This document shows, one piece after another, positions 2,543 through 46,385 of a stretch of DNA of 64,000 nt. The notes beneath the pieces are model-generated. The model was not told the DNA's origin. It worked only from the letters and a program-made list of their open reading frames with translations, and ran no database searches. Each line of letters starts with the position of its first letter. Within the stretch, counting starts at the first letter, position 1. The translations under genes and the position numbers were made by a program. This DNA comes from Cyanosarcina radialis HA8281-LM2 (lineage in GTDB: Bacteria > Cyanobacteriota > Cyanobacteriia > Cyanobacteriales > CCAP-1448). The DNA lies in assembly GCA_019359615.1 (NCBI GenBank), contig JAHHHA010000022.1:1-64000 (forward strand), in the 5' to 3' direction.

Positions 2543-3298
2543 ATGAACGATCGACAAATCGTGCTAATTAGCGGTGCTAGCAGCGGAATTGGGGCTGCTT
2601 GCGCGAAAGTTTTTGCCCGTGCTGGTGCAAAACTGATTTTATTAGCCAGACGGCAGGAACGATTAGAACAATTAGCTATGGAACTTGCCTGTGAGACGTA
2701 TTTGTTAGCTCTCGACGTGCGCGATCGCCAGCAAGTAGAATCGGCTCTATCATCTCTTCCCACACCGTGGTCTGAAGTCGATATTTTAATTAATAATGCT
2801 GGTCTTTCTAGAGGTTTAGATAAGCTGGATCGAGGCGACATCCAAGATTGGGAAGAAATGATCGATACCAACATTAAAGGGTTGCTGTATATGACGCGAT
2901 CGCTTTTGCCGGGAATGGTGAATCGCGATCGAGGACATATCATCAATATCGGTTCGATCGCCGGACATCAAGCCTATCCTGGCGGTAATGTTTATTGTGG
3001 GTCTAAAGCCGCCGTCAGAATAATTTCAGAAGGTTTGAAACAAGATCTTTTAGGCACTTCTGTACGGGTAAGTTGCATCGATCCTGGAATGGTAGAAACA
3101 GAGTTTAGCCAAGTGAGATTTCACGGCGATACAGAACGCGCCCAAAAAGTTTACCAGGGCTTAACCCCCTTAACCCCAGAAGATGTGGCTGATGTAGTAT
3201 TTTTCTGTGCCACCAGACCGCCGCACGTTAATATCAGCGAAGTCCTCCTAGTCCCGACCGCTCAAGCTACTGCTACCCTAGTGCATCGACAAGTTTGA
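2543..3298 (+). CDS. Short-chain dehydrogenase/reductase (YdfG-like)
   Basis: A 251-residue cytoplasmic NAD(P)-dependent oxidoreductase of the classical SDR type. Visible motifs in order: nucleotide-binding GASSGIG at residues 11-17, NNAG at 84-87, catalytic Ser138 in NIGSIAG, and catalytic Tyr151/Lys155 in YCGSK. The basic ARR after the second beta strand favours NADPH. The C-terminal pattern (ISEVLLVPT) resembles E. coli YdfG, which oxidises L-allo-threonine and 3-hydroxy acids; the actual substrate cannot be read from sequence. Length is normal. It stands alone, with a strong terminator just upstream and a divergent neighbour downstream. Confidence 0.9.
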   Translation: MNDRQIVLISGASSGIGAACAKVFARAGAKLILLARRQERLEQLAMELACETYLLALDVRDRQQVESALSSLPTPWSEVDILINNAGLSRGLDKLDRGDIQDWEEMIDTNIKGLLYMTRSLLPGMVNRDRGHIINIGSIAGHQAYPGGNVYCGSKAAVRIISEGLKQDLLGTSVRVSCIDPGMVETEFSQVRFHGDTERAQKVYQGLTPLTPEDVADVVFFCATRPPHVNISEVLLVPTAQATATLVHRQV

Positions 3299-3402
3299 GT
3301 CTAGAAGAGAGAGCATAGAAGGCAGAAGAGCAGCCCTTCGACAACGCTCGGGGCAAGAGGGGCAGAGGGAAAAATTAACAACTGACAACTGAACTCTCGT
3401 AC

Positions 3403-3422
3403 AGACGTAGCATACTACGTCT
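3403..3422. repeat. Short palindromic repeat AGACGTAG...CTACGTCT
   Basis: An 8-base stem with a CATA loop in the gap between two convergent genes. It belongs to a family of AGACGNGA-like palindromes also seen near 11107 and inside nrdJ at 42393. Confidence 0.5.
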
Positions 3423-3448
3423 CTACTCCTGAACTCTTGTATTCTGAT

Positions 3449-3985
3449 TTAAAATCTCCAGCCAATGCCGCCTTGAACTGAGATTGCCGTACCGCCGCCA
3501 TCTTGGTAGGCATTGGGAGCGATGATGGCATTACCAAAGATCACTGCTTTGCTGTTGGGCAGAGCGTAATCGATTCCAGGTTGCAAAGCTAAACCAGTCT
3601 TGTTACCTACAGGTGTTGGCTCGTCTCCAGCCGCAAACACTACTCCCGCGCCTAAGTAAGCATCAGTTTGCCAGCTAAGGGGAAAGTCGTAAGAAATGGT
3701 AGGGACGATCGCTTGATTGGAGCCAATGAGAGCCTGGGTTCGCAATGAAAATGGGGCTTCTAAAAACTTGTAACGGACGCTAATCGTTCCCCCAGGAGAA
3801 GTGCTTTCACCATTTCCACTCTCGCTCACGCCCATATTAGCCCCGACTCCGACATAACTGCCATAAGCAGCTTGAGCCAAAGCCGAACTAGGAGCGATCG
3901 TTAAACCCACAGATGCAGTAATTATTCCTAGCGCCGCTACTCTCGATCCCGACCACACACCATTCAGACGCTTCATTTCCTTCAC
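3449..3985 (-). CDS. Small outer-membrane beta-barrel protein
   Basis: A 178-residue protein with a signal peptide (hydrophobic segment ending SSALAQA near residue 39), followed by alternating polar/hydrophobic strands (YVGVGANMGV, TISVRYKF, SVQGGIGWRF). It ends in Phe, the outer-membrane barrel insertion signature. The size fits an eight-stranded barrel of the OmpW/OmpA-barrel type. Function is unknown; a narrow pore or lipid-binding role is possible. It is divergent from rpsP, with about 217 bases between them that must hold both promoters. Confidence 0.75.
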   Translation of the reverse strand: MKEMKRLNGVWSGSRVAALGIITASVGLTIAPSSALAQAAYGSYVGVGANMGVSESGNGESTSPGGTISVRYKFLEAPFSLRTQALIGSNQAIVPTISYDFPLSWQTDAYLGAGVVFAAGDEPTPVGNKTGLALQPGIDYALPNSKAVIFGNAIIAPNAYQDGGGTAISVQGGIGWRF

Positions 3986-41759: not shown

Positions 41760-44700
41760 ATGGTTCGAGAACTCGATCGCTCCCATTCGGTAAGAACCGA
41801 AGAACTTCCCTCTGGGCAACAGTTTCCAGCCACCGCGCCTGCTGCTAATCCAGTATTTTTCAGGACTTACAGCCGCCGCACGGCATCGGGACGAGAGACA
41901 TGGGAACAAGTAGGCGATCGCACTCTTAGAGGTTTAATCGAACTCGGCAAGCTATCAAGTGAAGAAGCGGCGCTCATCCAGCGAATGCAGCAGAATATGA
42001 AAACTTTCCCTTCCGGGCGTTGGCTGTGGGTAGGCGGTATCCCCTGGTTAGAAAACCAGCAAAACTTCTCTGGCGGCTATAATTGCACCTCTACCAACGT
42101 CACCGACTGGCGGGCCTTTGGCTTAATGATGGATTTAGCCATGATGGGCTGCGGTACGGGTGCGATCCTCGAACCAAAATATATTAACCAACTGCCCCCC
42201 ATTTGCAACCGCCTGGTAGTAACTGTAGATAAAGAAATTGGCTCGACTTCAGCCGCCGAACGCCGGGAGCAGACGCAAATTAAGATTGCTGGAAATCGCG
42301 TCTCGATATCAGTAGGGGATAGTCGTTCTGGTTGGGTAAAGTCTTATCAAGCGTTATTGGAATTATCTACCGATCCGCAATTTGGCTCGAATGTAGAGAC
42401 GGGAGATCTCGCCTCTGTACAGGTAGCGATCGATCTGAGCCACGTTCGCCCAGCGGGAGAACCTTTAAAAGGTTTTGGCGGCGTTGCCAACCCGATCAAA
42501 TTACCAGGACTTTATCAGCGTTGTGCGGCAATTTTAAATAAAGCGATCGGACGGCAATTAAACTCAGTTGAATGCTGTTTGTTAATTGATGAAGCGGCTG
42601 TAGTCGTTGTTGCTGGCAATGTTCGCCGCTGTATCGCTTATGGGGAAATGGTTTCAGCAATTTCGGGAATGAAGCCGATTCAAGATATTGCTATCGGTGA
42701 ATTGGTGCTGACTTCTTCTGGAGAATACAAACCCGTTACCGATAAGTTTCTGCAAGGAGTACAAGATGTAGTTGAGATTCGGACTGCCGAAACTTCCATT
42801 CGCTGTACTGCCAACCATCGGGTTGCTGTTTACAACGGCCTGCAATCTTATAACTGGAAATATGCAGGTGAATTACGATCGGGCGATCGCCTAATTTCTG
42901 TTCCTCACCGCAAAGGAATGCCCTGTTCTACGGCTGATTATGCTTGGCTGGTGGGGTTCTTTATTGGTGACGGCAATGCAGATATTGCTTCTTCAAAGCG
43001 CCGTAACGGTGGCGGTGGATGCGTTGCTTTTGCCTTTTCTAAAGTGCGGATAAACGGCGTTCTCGGTCAAAAATGTCTCCGCATTCTCAAAAGTTTGGGT
43101 TATACCCCGTCCATCAGGATAGACGAGAATCAAGCCTGGATAAAAGTTCACCGCAAAGAATTGGCTGACGAACTCATTCAGTACAAACAGTCTTGGGGAA
43201 CTCCTGTAATTCCAGAATTTGTTTGGTTGGGAACTGAAGAAATTCGAGGTGCTTTTCTGGCGGGGTTAGCCGATGCCGATGCTGGCCCGTCGCGGAATGT
43301 TTTATTGCACTCCAACAAACTAGAATTTTTGCGGCAAATTCAACGGTTAGCTTTGTCTTTAGGAATTGCCACAACCTTACACGAACGCATTCAGAAAATG
43401 CTGAGAGGTCGCGATACTGTTTATGAGGGTTGTCATTGGCTAAAAATTCGAGGAATTCAGTCTCAAGTCAATGCAGTTGCTCTCGTAAACCCATACATGG
43501 AACGTGCAGGGTTCCAGATTTACGGACAGAAAAAAAACGGATTGAGTTTGCCCCATCAGTTCATTGAAGAAGCAATGGCTAGCGGTTGGGCAGCTACAAC
43601 TGTCAGCCAAACCAGATACCTCATCAGCCCCAGTAAAACAGGCAACCCAAAACGCGATGCCAACTGGGATACTTTGCTCTCTGAGGGTATTGTTAATCCT
43701 CATTGGCTACCCTTAAAGGTGCAATTAGTTGTACCCGCAGGACAAGCTGAAACTTTCGATATTGAAGTTGAGAGCGATCGCGAATTTATCGCTAGTGGTT
43801 TACTGGTCCATAACAGTGCCGGTATGCGTCAGGGCGCTAGCGACGATGAATTATTTGCTGATGCTAAAGGTAATCTTTGGCAACAAGATCGAAATGGCAA
43901 TTGGCGAATCGATCCCGATCGCGATGCCCTAAGAATGGCAAATCATACCCGCGTCTTTCACCGCAAACCTACTTTAGAAGAATGTATAGAAGCGGTTCGC
44001 AAGCAATATTATTCTGGTGAAGGTGCAATTCAATGGGCTGGTGAAGCTGTAGCTAGAGCTAACTGCGATTTACTCTCGACTCAAAGCCAGAAAACAGACT
44101 TTCTCCAAGCATACGATCGCGGCCAAGCCAAAGAATGGTTGCAACAACATCATCCCAATTTAGATGCTAATGAATTAGAGCATCGCTTGTCTCGTTACGG
44201 GTTAAATCCTTGTGTTACTGCCGATACTTGGATTCATACAGAAACAGGTGCCAGACAAGTAAAAGATTTAGTCGGCAAACAATCGGCTTTGTACGTAAAT
44301 GGGGAACTATTTAGCACTACTCCTAAAGGCTTTTGGCTGACGGGAGTTAAGCCTGTATATCGACTGAAAACTCAAGAAGGGTTTGAATTGCGTCTTACCA
44401 GCAATCATAAGCTGCTAAAAGTTACCGCTCAAACTCAAAAACAGCAATACGTTGAGTGGGTAGAATTGCAAGACTTAAAACCAGGCGATCGCATCTTACT
44501 TCACAACCATCGCGAAGTCCAACCTTGGGATGGTATTGGCACATTTGATGAAGGCTGGTTGCTAGGAAATTTAATTGGAGATGGCAGCTTAGCAGCAACT
44601 CAATGGGGACAAACAGCTTATCTACGATATTGGGAAGAATCCCAAGAGGAAATGGGAAGATATGCTGTGACGCTACTAAAAAATGCTGTTGGTTTTTCTG

Positions 44701-46385
44701 GCAATACTGAATCTGGATGTTACCATCACCAACTAAAACACCGAGCGATCGACTCACCGAAATTAGCTCGATTGACAGCAGATTACGGCATCACTATAGA
44801 AAGCAAAATGCCGACGGGAAAAGTCGAACAAGCTAGCTATGAGTTTAGTTGTGGCTTTTTACGGGGTTTATTTGATGCTGACGGTAGCGTACAAGGTTCT
44901 CAACAGAAAGGTGTCAGCATTAGACTAGCACAAAGCAATCTTGAAACGTTGAAGATCGTTCAAAGAATGCTAGCGCGACTGGGTATTATTTCAACTATTT
45001 ACCAAAATCGCCGTTCTGAAGATTACCGTTCCCTTCCAGATAGCAAACGCCAACCTGGGTTATATTTTTGCCAATCTCAACATGAGTTGATTATCTCCAA
45101 TGATAATATTTATTATTATCAGCAGATAATTGGCTTCCAAGAACCGCAAAAAACGACTCGTTTACAAGAACTATTGAGCGGTTACAAAAGAAAGGTTAAT
45201 CACGAACGATTTGCAGTCAAAATTAAAGAAATCGTTCCTGATGGAGTTGAGTCAGTTTATGATTGCACTGTACCAGGAGTATCTCGATTTGATGCCAACG
45301 GCATTGTCGCGCACAACTGCGGAGAAATAATTGGCGCTAATTTCCACTGTAACTTGGCAGAGGTTCATCTCAATCAAATTGCTCCAGAAAATACCCTCGA
45401 ACAAGAAGAAGCATTCGCTGCTGGTGGACTATCTGTAGCTACTTTGTTGAACCATCAATTTCTCGAACCGCGCTATCAATACAGTCGAGAATTAGATCCG
45501 ATCGTCGGGGTATCTTTTACTGGATTGTTTGACTTCTTCGTCACTGCTTTTGGAGTAGACTGGTTGCGATGGTGGGAAGCCGGACGACCCGAAACTTCCC
45601 AAGGAAAAGAATTTAAACTTAGAGAACAAGAATATCTCACCCGCTGGAAAGAGATCGTGCAAGGGGTAGTGTGGGATTATTGCGATCGCCATCAGATAAA
45701 ACGTCCCAATCGTTGTACTACATTGCAGCCAGCGGGGACAAAATCGCTATTAACTGGTGCATCTCCTGGTTGGCATCCACCTAAAGCCCAAAGATTTATC
45801 CGGCGGATTACTTTTGCCAAAAACGATCCAGTCGCTTTAGCTTGCATCGAATATGGTTACAATGTCGTTCCCGCTCAATCTGACAAAGATGAAAATGGCA
45901 ACTTGCTCGACGATCCGTTCGATCCTCGTTGCACTGAATGGCTAGTAGAAATTCCAGTAGAAGTACCTTGGGCAAATTTACCAGGCGCATCCGAAATTAA
46001 CATCAGTAAATTTTCTGCTTTAGCGCAGATGGATTTTTACTTACAAGTACAGCGTTATTGGACGACTCATAACTCTTCTGCCACGATCGAATTAACCGAT
46101 CCTGAAGTCGAACCTTTAGCCGAGAGAATTTATCAGGCGATTCGCGACGATGAAGGCTACATTTCTGCTGCCCTGTTAGCTAGGTTTGAAGACCATCAAT
46201 CTTTCCCCAGACTACCTTTTGAACCGATTACTAAAGAGGAATACGATCGCTTGAGTGCAGAGGTCATACAAAGACGAAAAACCGATGATTTTCAGGTAGC
46301 TTTGAACCGCTACGATCGCGGCGAATTAGCAGAAGCTGGCCCGGCTGGTTGCGATTCAGATAAGTGTATGTTTCCGACTCAGTAA
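41760..46385 (+). CDS. nrdJ: B12-dependent ribonucleotide reductase with two inteins
   Basis: The 1541-residue precursor contains two inteins (residues 291-685 and 818-1186); splicing leaves 777 residues, the size of class II monomeric ribonucleoside-triphosphate reductase. Extein motifs: GCGTGAILEPKYINQLPP, VVVAGNVRR/SAGMRQG, NP/CGEIIGANFHCNLAEV, LQPAGTKSLLTGASPGW and the C-terminal redox pair Cys1531-Cys1536 (GCDSDKCMFPTQ). It makes dNTPs using adenosylcobalamin, so it needs no oxygen or metal-radical subunit. Intein 2 sits directly before the active-site Cys. A repeat-derived segment (NVETGDLASV) is inserted near residue 215. No cobalamin riboswitch was seen upstream. Confidence 0.96.
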   Translation: MVRELDRSHSVRTEELPSGQQFPATAPAANPVFFRTYSRRTASGRETWEQVGDRTLRGLIELGKLSSEEAALIQRMQQNMKTFPSGRWLWVGGIPWLENQQNFSGGYNCTSTNVTDWRAFGLMMDLAMMGCGTGAILEPKYINQLPPICNRLVVTVDKEIGSTSAAERREQTQIKIAGNRVSISVGDSRSGWVKSYQALLELSTDPQFGSNVETGDLASVQVAIDLSHVRPAGEPLKGFGGVANPIKLPGLYQRCAAILNKAIGRQLNSVECCLLIDEAAVVVVAGNVRRCIAYGEMVSAISGMKPIQDIAIGELVLTSSGEYKPVTDKFLQGVQDVVEIRTAETSIRCTANHRVAVYNGLQSYNWKYAGELRSGDRLISVPHRKGMPCSTADYAWLVGFFIGDGNADIASSKRRNGGGGCVAFAFSKVRINGVLGQKCLRILKSLGYTPSIRIDENQAWIKVHRKELADELIQYKQSWGTPVIPEFVWLGTEEIRGAFLAGLADADAGPSRNVLLHSNKLEFLRQIQRLALSLGIATTLHERIQKMLRGRDTVYEGCHWLKIRGIQSQVNAVALVNPYMERAGFQIYGQKKNGLSLPHQFIEEAMASGWAATTVSQTRYLISPSKTGNPKRDANWDTLLSEGIVNPHWLPLKVQLVVPAGQAETFDIEVESDREFIASGLLVHNSAGMRQGASDDELFADAKGNLWQQDRNGNWRIDPDRDALRMANHTRVFHRKPTLEECIEAVRKQYYSGEGAIQWAGEAVARANCDLLSTQSQKTDFLQAYDRGQAKEWLQQHHPNLDANELEHRLSRYGLNPCVTADTWIHTETGARQVKDLVGKQSALYVNGELFSTTPKGFWLTGVKPVYRLKTQEGFELRLTSNHKLLKVTAQTQKQQYVEWVELQDLKPGDRILLHNHREVQPWDGIGTFDEGWLLGNLIGDGSLAATQWGQTAYLRYWEESQEEMGRYAVTLLKNAVGFSGNTESGCYHHQLKHRAIDSPKLARLTADYGITIESKMPTGKVEQASYEFSCGFLRGLFDADGSVQGSQQKGVSIRLAQSNLETLKIVQRMLARLGIISTIYQNRRSEDYRSLPDSKRQPGLYFCQSQHELIISNDNIYYYQQIIGFQEPQKTTRLQELLSGYKRKVNHERFAVKIKEIVPDGVESVYDCTVPGVSRFDANGIVAHNCGEIIGANFHCNLAEVHLNQIAPENTLEQEEAFAAGGLSVATLLNHQFLEPRYQYSRELDPIVGVSFTGLFDFFVTAFGVDWLRWWEAGRPETSQGKEFKLREQEYLTRWKEIVQGVVWDYCDRHQIKRPNRCTTLQPAGTKSLLTGASPGWHPPKAQRFIRRITFAKNDPVALACIEYGYNVVPAQSDKDENGNLLDDPFDPRCTEWLVEIPVEVPWANLPGASEINISKFSALAQMDFYLQVQRYWTTHNSSATIELTDPEVEPLAERIYQAIRDDEGYISAALLARFEDHQSFPRLPFEPITKEEYDRLSAEVIQRRKTDDFQVALNRYDRGELAEAGPAGCDSDKCMFPTQ
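42393..42420 (+). repeat. Palindromic GTAGAGACG repeat inside nrdJ
   Basis: The arms GTAGAGACGGGAGA and TCTCGCCTCTGTAC form an imperfect palindrome of the AGACGCGAGA family (see 11107-11126). It encodes about nine extra residues (VETGDLASV) in frame in the reductase N-terminal domain. Confidence 0.75.
42630..43814 (+). other. NrdJ intein 1 (395 residues)
   Basis: It begins at Cys291 (CIAYGEMVSAISGMKPI) and ends GLLVHN before Ser686 of the extein. The splicing blocks A (CIAYGE) and B (IRCTANHRVAV), and the final HN are intact. Two LAGLIDADG homing-endonuclease motifs are present: AWLVGFFIGDGNAD and RGAFLAGLADADAG. It should therefore be both splicing- and homing-competent. The insertion site (GNVRR/SAGMR) is a known conserved site in ribonucleotide reductases. 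Confidence 0.93.
44211..45317 (+). other. NrdJ intein 2 (369 residues)
   Basis: It begins at Cys818 (CVTADTWIHTETGARQVKDL) and ends GIVAHN before Cys1187. Block B (LRLTSNHKLLKVT) is intact. Endonuclease motifs are GWLLGNLIGDGSLA and CGFLRGLFDADGSVQ. The downstream residue is the extein Cys that also forms the thiyl radical in class II enzymes, so the enzyme cannot function before splicing. Confidence 0.93.

Follow-up and report, generated by a model that had tools for sequence, protein, structure and literature searches.

An intein directly before the predicted radical cysteine of a cyanobacterial class II ribonucleotide reductase and its relatives in other reductase genes

The split intein NrdJ-1 originates from a class II ribonucleotide reductase. 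Its native flanks are NPC and SEI (PMC13123727), and, like the intein studied here (intein 2), it is a reductase intein at an NPC motif. Distinct from NrdJ-1, which is split in two at NPC/SEI, requires serine at position +1 and sits one residue after the cysteine of this motif, intein 2 is contiguous, with flanks reading NP/CGE in one continuous frame, and lies before the cysteine, which is its own +1 residue. The intein in the bnrdE gene of phage SPbeta can be aligned with intein 2 over the full length of both (28.9% identity, E 5e-25), yet it is found in a class I phage host gene, has leucine at position -1 and ends in Gly-Asn. The intein of the Aquifex aeolicus R2 protein shares with intein 2 a LAGLIDADG endonuclease, a location at a radical-generating centre and cysteine at +1 (PMC8772380), whereas its host is the small subunit, an unrelated protein, and the centre is a di-iron site. 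A precedent for the use of equivalent sites in different proteins comes from the haloarchaeal MCM inteins, one of which (MCM-a, as concluded by elimination) uses the Walker A position that archaeal VMA-b occupies in a different gene (PMC10643990); these inteins differ from intein 2 in that they belong to other genes and occupy an ATP-binding site instead of a radical cysteine. In cyanobacteria, inteins and group I introns of RIR (RTPR) genes, including a group I intron in the RIR gene of Nostoc punctiforme, were described by Meng et al. 2007, as relayed by a 2025 review (PMC12702839). Intein 2 is therefore presented here as another case of a known kind. Among the best-ranked titles and abstract openings of the literature, a scope outside which older key papers fall, we found no statement of an intein family that precedes the radical cysteine across reductase classes.

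The window, i.e., the whole 64,000-nucleotide stretch of DNA analysed here, carries a reductase gene with two inteins inside. Its 1541-aa product scores 718 bits, against a cut-off of 340, with TIGR02505 (adenosylcobalamin-dependent ribonucleoside-triphosphate reductase) and, judged by this equivalog profile, the gene is a monomeric class II, B12-dependent reductase (RTPR). The features of the gene, in positions of the window, are as follows.

41760-46385, forward strand: RTPR gene containing two inteins (1541 aa; spliced extein 777 aa), assigned by its TIGR02505 match
42630-43814, forward strand: intein 1 (395 aa), flanked by NVRR and SAGM, with a Hom_end endonuclease domain, assigned by domain match
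44211-45317, forward strand: intein 2 (369 aa), NP/C...HN/C, delimited by NCBIfam termini and reading frame, with endonuclease inteins as best PDB fold matches
44211-44213, forward strand: Cys1 of intein 2, presumably the first splicing nucleophile, invariant in 23 of 23 window-like inteins
44559-44585, forward strand: first LAGLIDADG motif, LLGNLIGDG, a sequence motif
44856-44885, forward strand: second LAGLIDADG motif, FLRGLFDADG, a sequence motif
45312-45317, forward strand: penultimate His and terminal Asn of intein 2, invariant in the same 23 inteins
45318-45320, forward strand: codon of the +1 Cys, aligned by phmmer to residue 408 of 1L1L

In the precursor, intein 2 extends from the Cys at residue 818 to the Asn at residue 1186, with the flanks GLNP/CGEI. 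NCBIfam intein_Nterm begins at residue 818 and intein_Cterm finishes at residue 1187, and Pfam recognises LAGLIDADG_3 and Intein_splicing within the insert. The original prediction, which had placed the intein at 44211-45320, gave the correct start, but its end lay one codon too far and took in the codon of the +1 Cys. In an alignment of 23 inteins, residues C1, T63, H66, H368 and N369 are invariant, and the +1 residue is Cys; intein 2 thus has the class 1 splicing residues, namely Cys1, the block B TxxH, the C-terminal His-Asn and a Cys, Ser or Thr at +1. An AlphaFold2 model with the 23 aligned inteins as input (mean pLDDT 86.9, pTM 0.87) has its best PDB fold matches in endonuclease inteins (TliVMA intein, PI-PfuI and PI-SceI). 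Together with the Pfam matches, the predicted model displays a Hint splicing fold into which a two-motif endonuclease is inserted; both endonuclease motifs are present, and cleavage activity is predicted from sequence. Taken together, residues, domains and predicted fold identify intein 2 as a class 1 LAGLIDADG intein. Endonuclease-type domains are found in both inteins of the gene, as had been claimed.

In a phmmer alignment with chain 1L1L_A, the RTPR of L. leichmannii, Cys1187 of the query falls on residue 408 and Cys1197 on residue 419, which we take to be the thiyl-radical Cys and one of the reducing Cys pair, respectively. The RTPR therefore has the equivalents of the radical Cys and of one reducing Cys, in an alignment that covered no other reducing Cys. 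The claim that intein 2 is inserted directly before the radical Cys is confirmed by this result, and the alignment places the radical Cys nowhere else. In class 1 intein chemistry, the +1 Cys takes the N-extein and is later freed as a normal residue. Combined with this chemistry, the alignment to residue 408 also upholds the idea that a single Cys serves both splicing and catalysis, i.e., that the +1 Cys would act as splicing nucleophile and radical residue alike. Because it receives the N-extein and is freed only later, the unspliced reductase precursor should be inactive.

A TIGR02505 profile search of the same genome has the gene at 41760-46385 as its sole match. Additionally, profile searches with PF02867, PF00268 and PF13597, which detected their families in 11, 7 and 6 of 14 control genomes, respectively, returned no match in this genome, i.e., no class I or III reductase. 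Since no other class matched and the genome is rated 100% complete, the RTPR gene is probably the only reductase of the genome among the families searched and, given the lack of a match to these three profiles, probably essential.

For the distribution of the intein, 386 genomes of the phylum were searched, of which 144 have a reductase above the cut-off; among the matches listed, 74 are one-piece reductases, 59 of these in family f26 (hand count), and the f26 genomes among the matches listed have a single reductase match each. The sample used below comprises 75 loci, namely the window, 71 further loci from the phylum search and the three relatives G386, G406 and G411. It includes L084, which shows a frameshift only, and L016, which is also frameshifted and was scored as empty at the site of intein 2 (site 2, NP/C). 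Site 2 contains an intein in 30 of the 75 loci. In 23 of them it is window-like; the other 7 have a distant type with CH[AS]GDTL as its first residues, and one of these 7 inteins shares 30% identity with intein 2. The site 2 region carries a non-coding insert in 21 loci and is empty in 24, and intein and insert occur together in none of the 75. The site of intein 1 is filled in 35 of the 75 cyanobacterial loci. Three further boundaries, all empty in the window, are interrupted in relatives.

45323-45324, forward strand: Gly/Glu codon boundary, with a group I intron, as called below, in 21 of 75 loci
45347-45348, forward strand: site 3, before the 419-equivalent Cys, with another intein in 24 of 75 loci
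45737-45738, forward strand: site 4, PAG/T boundary, with a further insert in 5 of 75 loci

L089 is the only locus whose ORF allows the site 4 insert to be read as an intein. The radical Cys or its immediate surroundings are occupied in many relatives, by this intein or by other inserts, so that the region of this residue is a hot spot for mobile elements.

The 21 non-coding inserts lie between the Gly and Glu codons, 6 bases 3' of the intein site, and measure 246-506 nt in 20 loci and 1153 nt in one. A P1 helix can be formed in all 21 between the exon CGUGUGGU and GCCUCACG (GCUUCACG in one), with the exon end CGTGTGGT paired to the same intron sequence and a U.G pair at the cut. The P7 helix has 6 of 6 pairs and occurs in four versions; three of these pairs are fixed by the search pattern itself, and the three free pairs hold in every intron and co-vary. 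The G before the 3' exon is present in 21 of 21, as demanded by the search pattern, which all of them fitted. Rfam group I models gave no match to any of the 21 loci at the gathering score, nor to one of the introns at E up to 5. On the basis of P1, P7 and the terminal G, we call the 21 inserts group I introns. Mutual exclusion of intein and intron was also considered: none of 97 genes has both, but comparison of independent pairs gives a median p of 0.125, which leaves exclusion unproven. A HEARO RNA (L038, 2974-3200, reverse strand) is located near a reductase gene carrying a group I intron.

Turnover was assessed on an extein tree of 97 genes, from which L083 and L089 were left out, with insert regions masked and a quick search with SH-aLRT support; occupancy of the intein 1 site was entered by hand. 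The tree is enriched in interrupted genes, as it takes 24 uninterrupted genes of the 74 among the matches listed. Site 2 is empty in 47 of the 97 genes, and the window-like intein requires at least 19 state changes by parsimony, a count that merges gains and losses, versus a mean of 20.0 after shuffling (172 of 500 shuffles were as low); well supported branches force 9 of the 19 changes. Sites 1 and 3 show 25 and 22 changes, respectively, and the intron is somewhat clustered (16 changes versus a shuffled mean of 19.2, with 15 of 500 as low). Moreover, 6 of the 23 window-like inteins (L017, L018, L019, L037, L047 and L082) are shortened to 290-316 aa with their endonuclease motifs lost or altered, as expected of a homing cycle. 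These observations fit a homing element that enters a gene, degenerates and then disappears or gives way to another insert, and that would not be locked in. The original prediction had argued that two endonuclease-bearing inteins in one essential gene make loss difficult; the empty sites, the near-random number of changes and the shortened inteins all speak against this, and the intuition is to be corrected, since presence changes about as freely as chance on the 97-gene tree. Presence among relatives, which had been proposed as a check, is indeed common but patchy, and the claim that loss is difficult is not supported. The earlier observation is thus confirmed, and its interpretation is partly supported. 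Frequent loss has also been described for haloarchaeal MCM inteins (PMC10643990).

In line with homing, conservation of the 24 bp at site 2 exceeds that of 94.5% of 733 windows in 38 genes, which fits a conserved target. An extension of this relation to all four intein sites was rejected, as the other three rank only at the 58th to 67th percentile; it holds at site 2 alone.

A profile of the 23 inteins was further searched in two collections and identified 86 loci (73 from named genomes and 13 from viral contigs), of which 8 repeat inteins of the 75 loci, and some of the viral rows are mutually identical. In 84 of these 86 loci the intein is preceded by NP and followed by C[GSV]E, which indicates that placement before the Cys is more than chance. 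The two exceptions are L181, which is cut off upstream, and L200, which reads NPC/CEI. In the latter, a viral contig, the insert (2998-3504, 167 aa) lies one residue past the radical Cys, the offset of NrdJ-1.

Seven of the loci, from Thermosynechococcaceae, Acaryochloris, Gloeobacterales and Aphanocapsa, have exteins unlike those of the window. Their C-exteins have no BLAST match to that of the window better than E 0.94, and their inteins are 51-56% identical to intein 2. The four C-exteins that were scanned match TIGR02504 (NrdJ_Z) best, at 272-280 bits, below the cut-off of 400 for the whole protein, and TIGR02505 weakly (E 3e-7 to 3e-6), and the remaining three NrdJ-like loci have the same type of flank. 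In one NrdJ-type host, the first Cys aligns to residue 322 of 1XJE/1XJK. As divergence is much greater in the C-exteins than in the inteins, the comparison suggests transfer between paralogous genes, and the intein has most likely moved from a reductase gene of one family to a gene of another (RTPR and NrdJ-type). Less probably, as RTPR and NrdJ exteins are distant homologues by profile, both extein families would share an ancient intein. A nesting of the NrdJ-type inteins within the RTPR ones appeared in a quick tree (quick search with SH-aLRT support, without L181, L200 and three frameshifted loci) but was not retained, as an AU test with 81 rows did not reject a separate RTPR clade (p 0.49); the AU tree further excluded type B, inteins shorter than 330 aa and 17 named rows that were fast or nearly duplicated.

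Related inteins reach class I enzymes as well. The intein of SPbeta bnrdE, a class I gene, is inserted at SNL/CSEV, and the Cys that follows it in the phage NrdE is matched by the alignment to residue 382 of 6CGL. The large subunit of Rheinheimera phage Barba8S has an intein at SNL/CSEI (25.8%, E 4e-8 versus intein 2), and the match to 6DQW starts at the Cys after this intein, at residue 286. By these alignments, the SPbeta and Rheinheimera phage inteins precede the equivalent class I Cys.

Taken together, intein 2 is very probably a mobile class 1 LAGLIDADG intein that targets the radical-Cys codons, homes, has crossed reductase families and excises itself. The most likely recognition site of its endonuclease is the DNA around the Asn-Pro-Cys-Gly-Glu codons; as the radical Cys and the neighbouring Glu are encoded there, these codons can change little. 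The intein would copy itself into empty alleles and has most likely crossed at some time between reductase families having this motif in common. After translation, Cys1 would form a thioester with Pro(-1), the radical Cys (+1) would then accept the N-extein and Asn369 would cyclise, leaving a normal reductase with its Cys free. The most constrained residue of the reductase is hence the place where window-like inteins, other inteins and the group I intron insert or crowd, and, because one intein family spans exteins that have diverged far more than the inteins, a few conserved codons seem to be enough for a homing element to cross gene families.

A different role is conceivable, in which the intein is a regulated switch whose precursor locks the radical Cys (e.g., through a disulfide between Cys1 and Cys+1 or through misfolding) and by which the host gates the synthesis of DNA precursors. 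It is suggested by the identity of nucleophile and radical residue in the 1L1L alignment and by the lack of any class I or III reductase match in the genome, and there are precedents: di-iron ligands flank the Aquifex R2 intein, and an intein-bearing construct had more iron and twice the activity (PMC8772380), one paper deals with a DnaB intein and oxidative stress, and titles report a SufB intein as an oxidative sensor and a catalytic-Cys disulfide in a precursor. We nevertheless consider a switch unlikely, because near-random presence with so many empty genes argues against a conserved function, endonuclease decay with the splicing residues retained is the outcome of a parasite cycle, and the last three N-extein residues (LNP) contain no Cys, which limits one kind of disulfide trap. 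Somewhat less likely still is a broader reading. In it, splicing elements of diverse kinds share reductase radical sites as a landing pad, across class I, monomeric class II and NrdJ-type class II enzymes, and some hosts have converted the splicing role of the radical Cys into a control of redox state or folding, so that active reductase is set free only once this Cys is in reduced form. An ancient vertical fixture, unremovable since imprecise loss would kill an essential gene, would suit the presumed essentiality of the gene and the identical position in very distant hosts, but it is highly improbable in view of the tree changes, which are about as many as in shuffled data, and of inteins far closer than the C-exteins between RTPR and NrdJ-like hosts. 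Least credible of all is an insert that does not splice in a dying gene, for which we found no evidence, and against which stand a frame open across all 1541 aa, intact splicing residues and the status of the gene as the only reductase found within the families searched.

Several minor observations concern the architecture of related reductase genes. In two genomes of genus g62, G079 (L088/L089) and G235 (L090/L083), the reductase is divided into two separate genes, which are approximately 84 kb apart in G079 and approximately 720 kb apart in G235. The break lies about 20 residues before the radical Cys, and the C-terminal part has inteins of its own. Split inteins were considered for G079 and G235 and rejected, as the frames at the break show no intein half; the gene itself is split. 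Inserts of approximately 2-2.5 kb interrupt the reductase genes of L055, L061 and L076 (extein 131/132) and of L004 (extein 91/92), and in all four Rfam detects the ends of a group II intron at the interruption. The site 3 inteins (e.g., L026, L029, L031 and L034) form a second family that ends in Gly-Asn or Gly-Gln, not His-Asn, and in 12 of the 75 loci the two active-site cysteines, which lie 10 extein residues apart, are each accompanied by an intein. In L087 (G314), a single reductase gene has six breaks over approximately 13 kb, among them inteins at sites 2 and 3, with inserts also present at sites 1 and 4.
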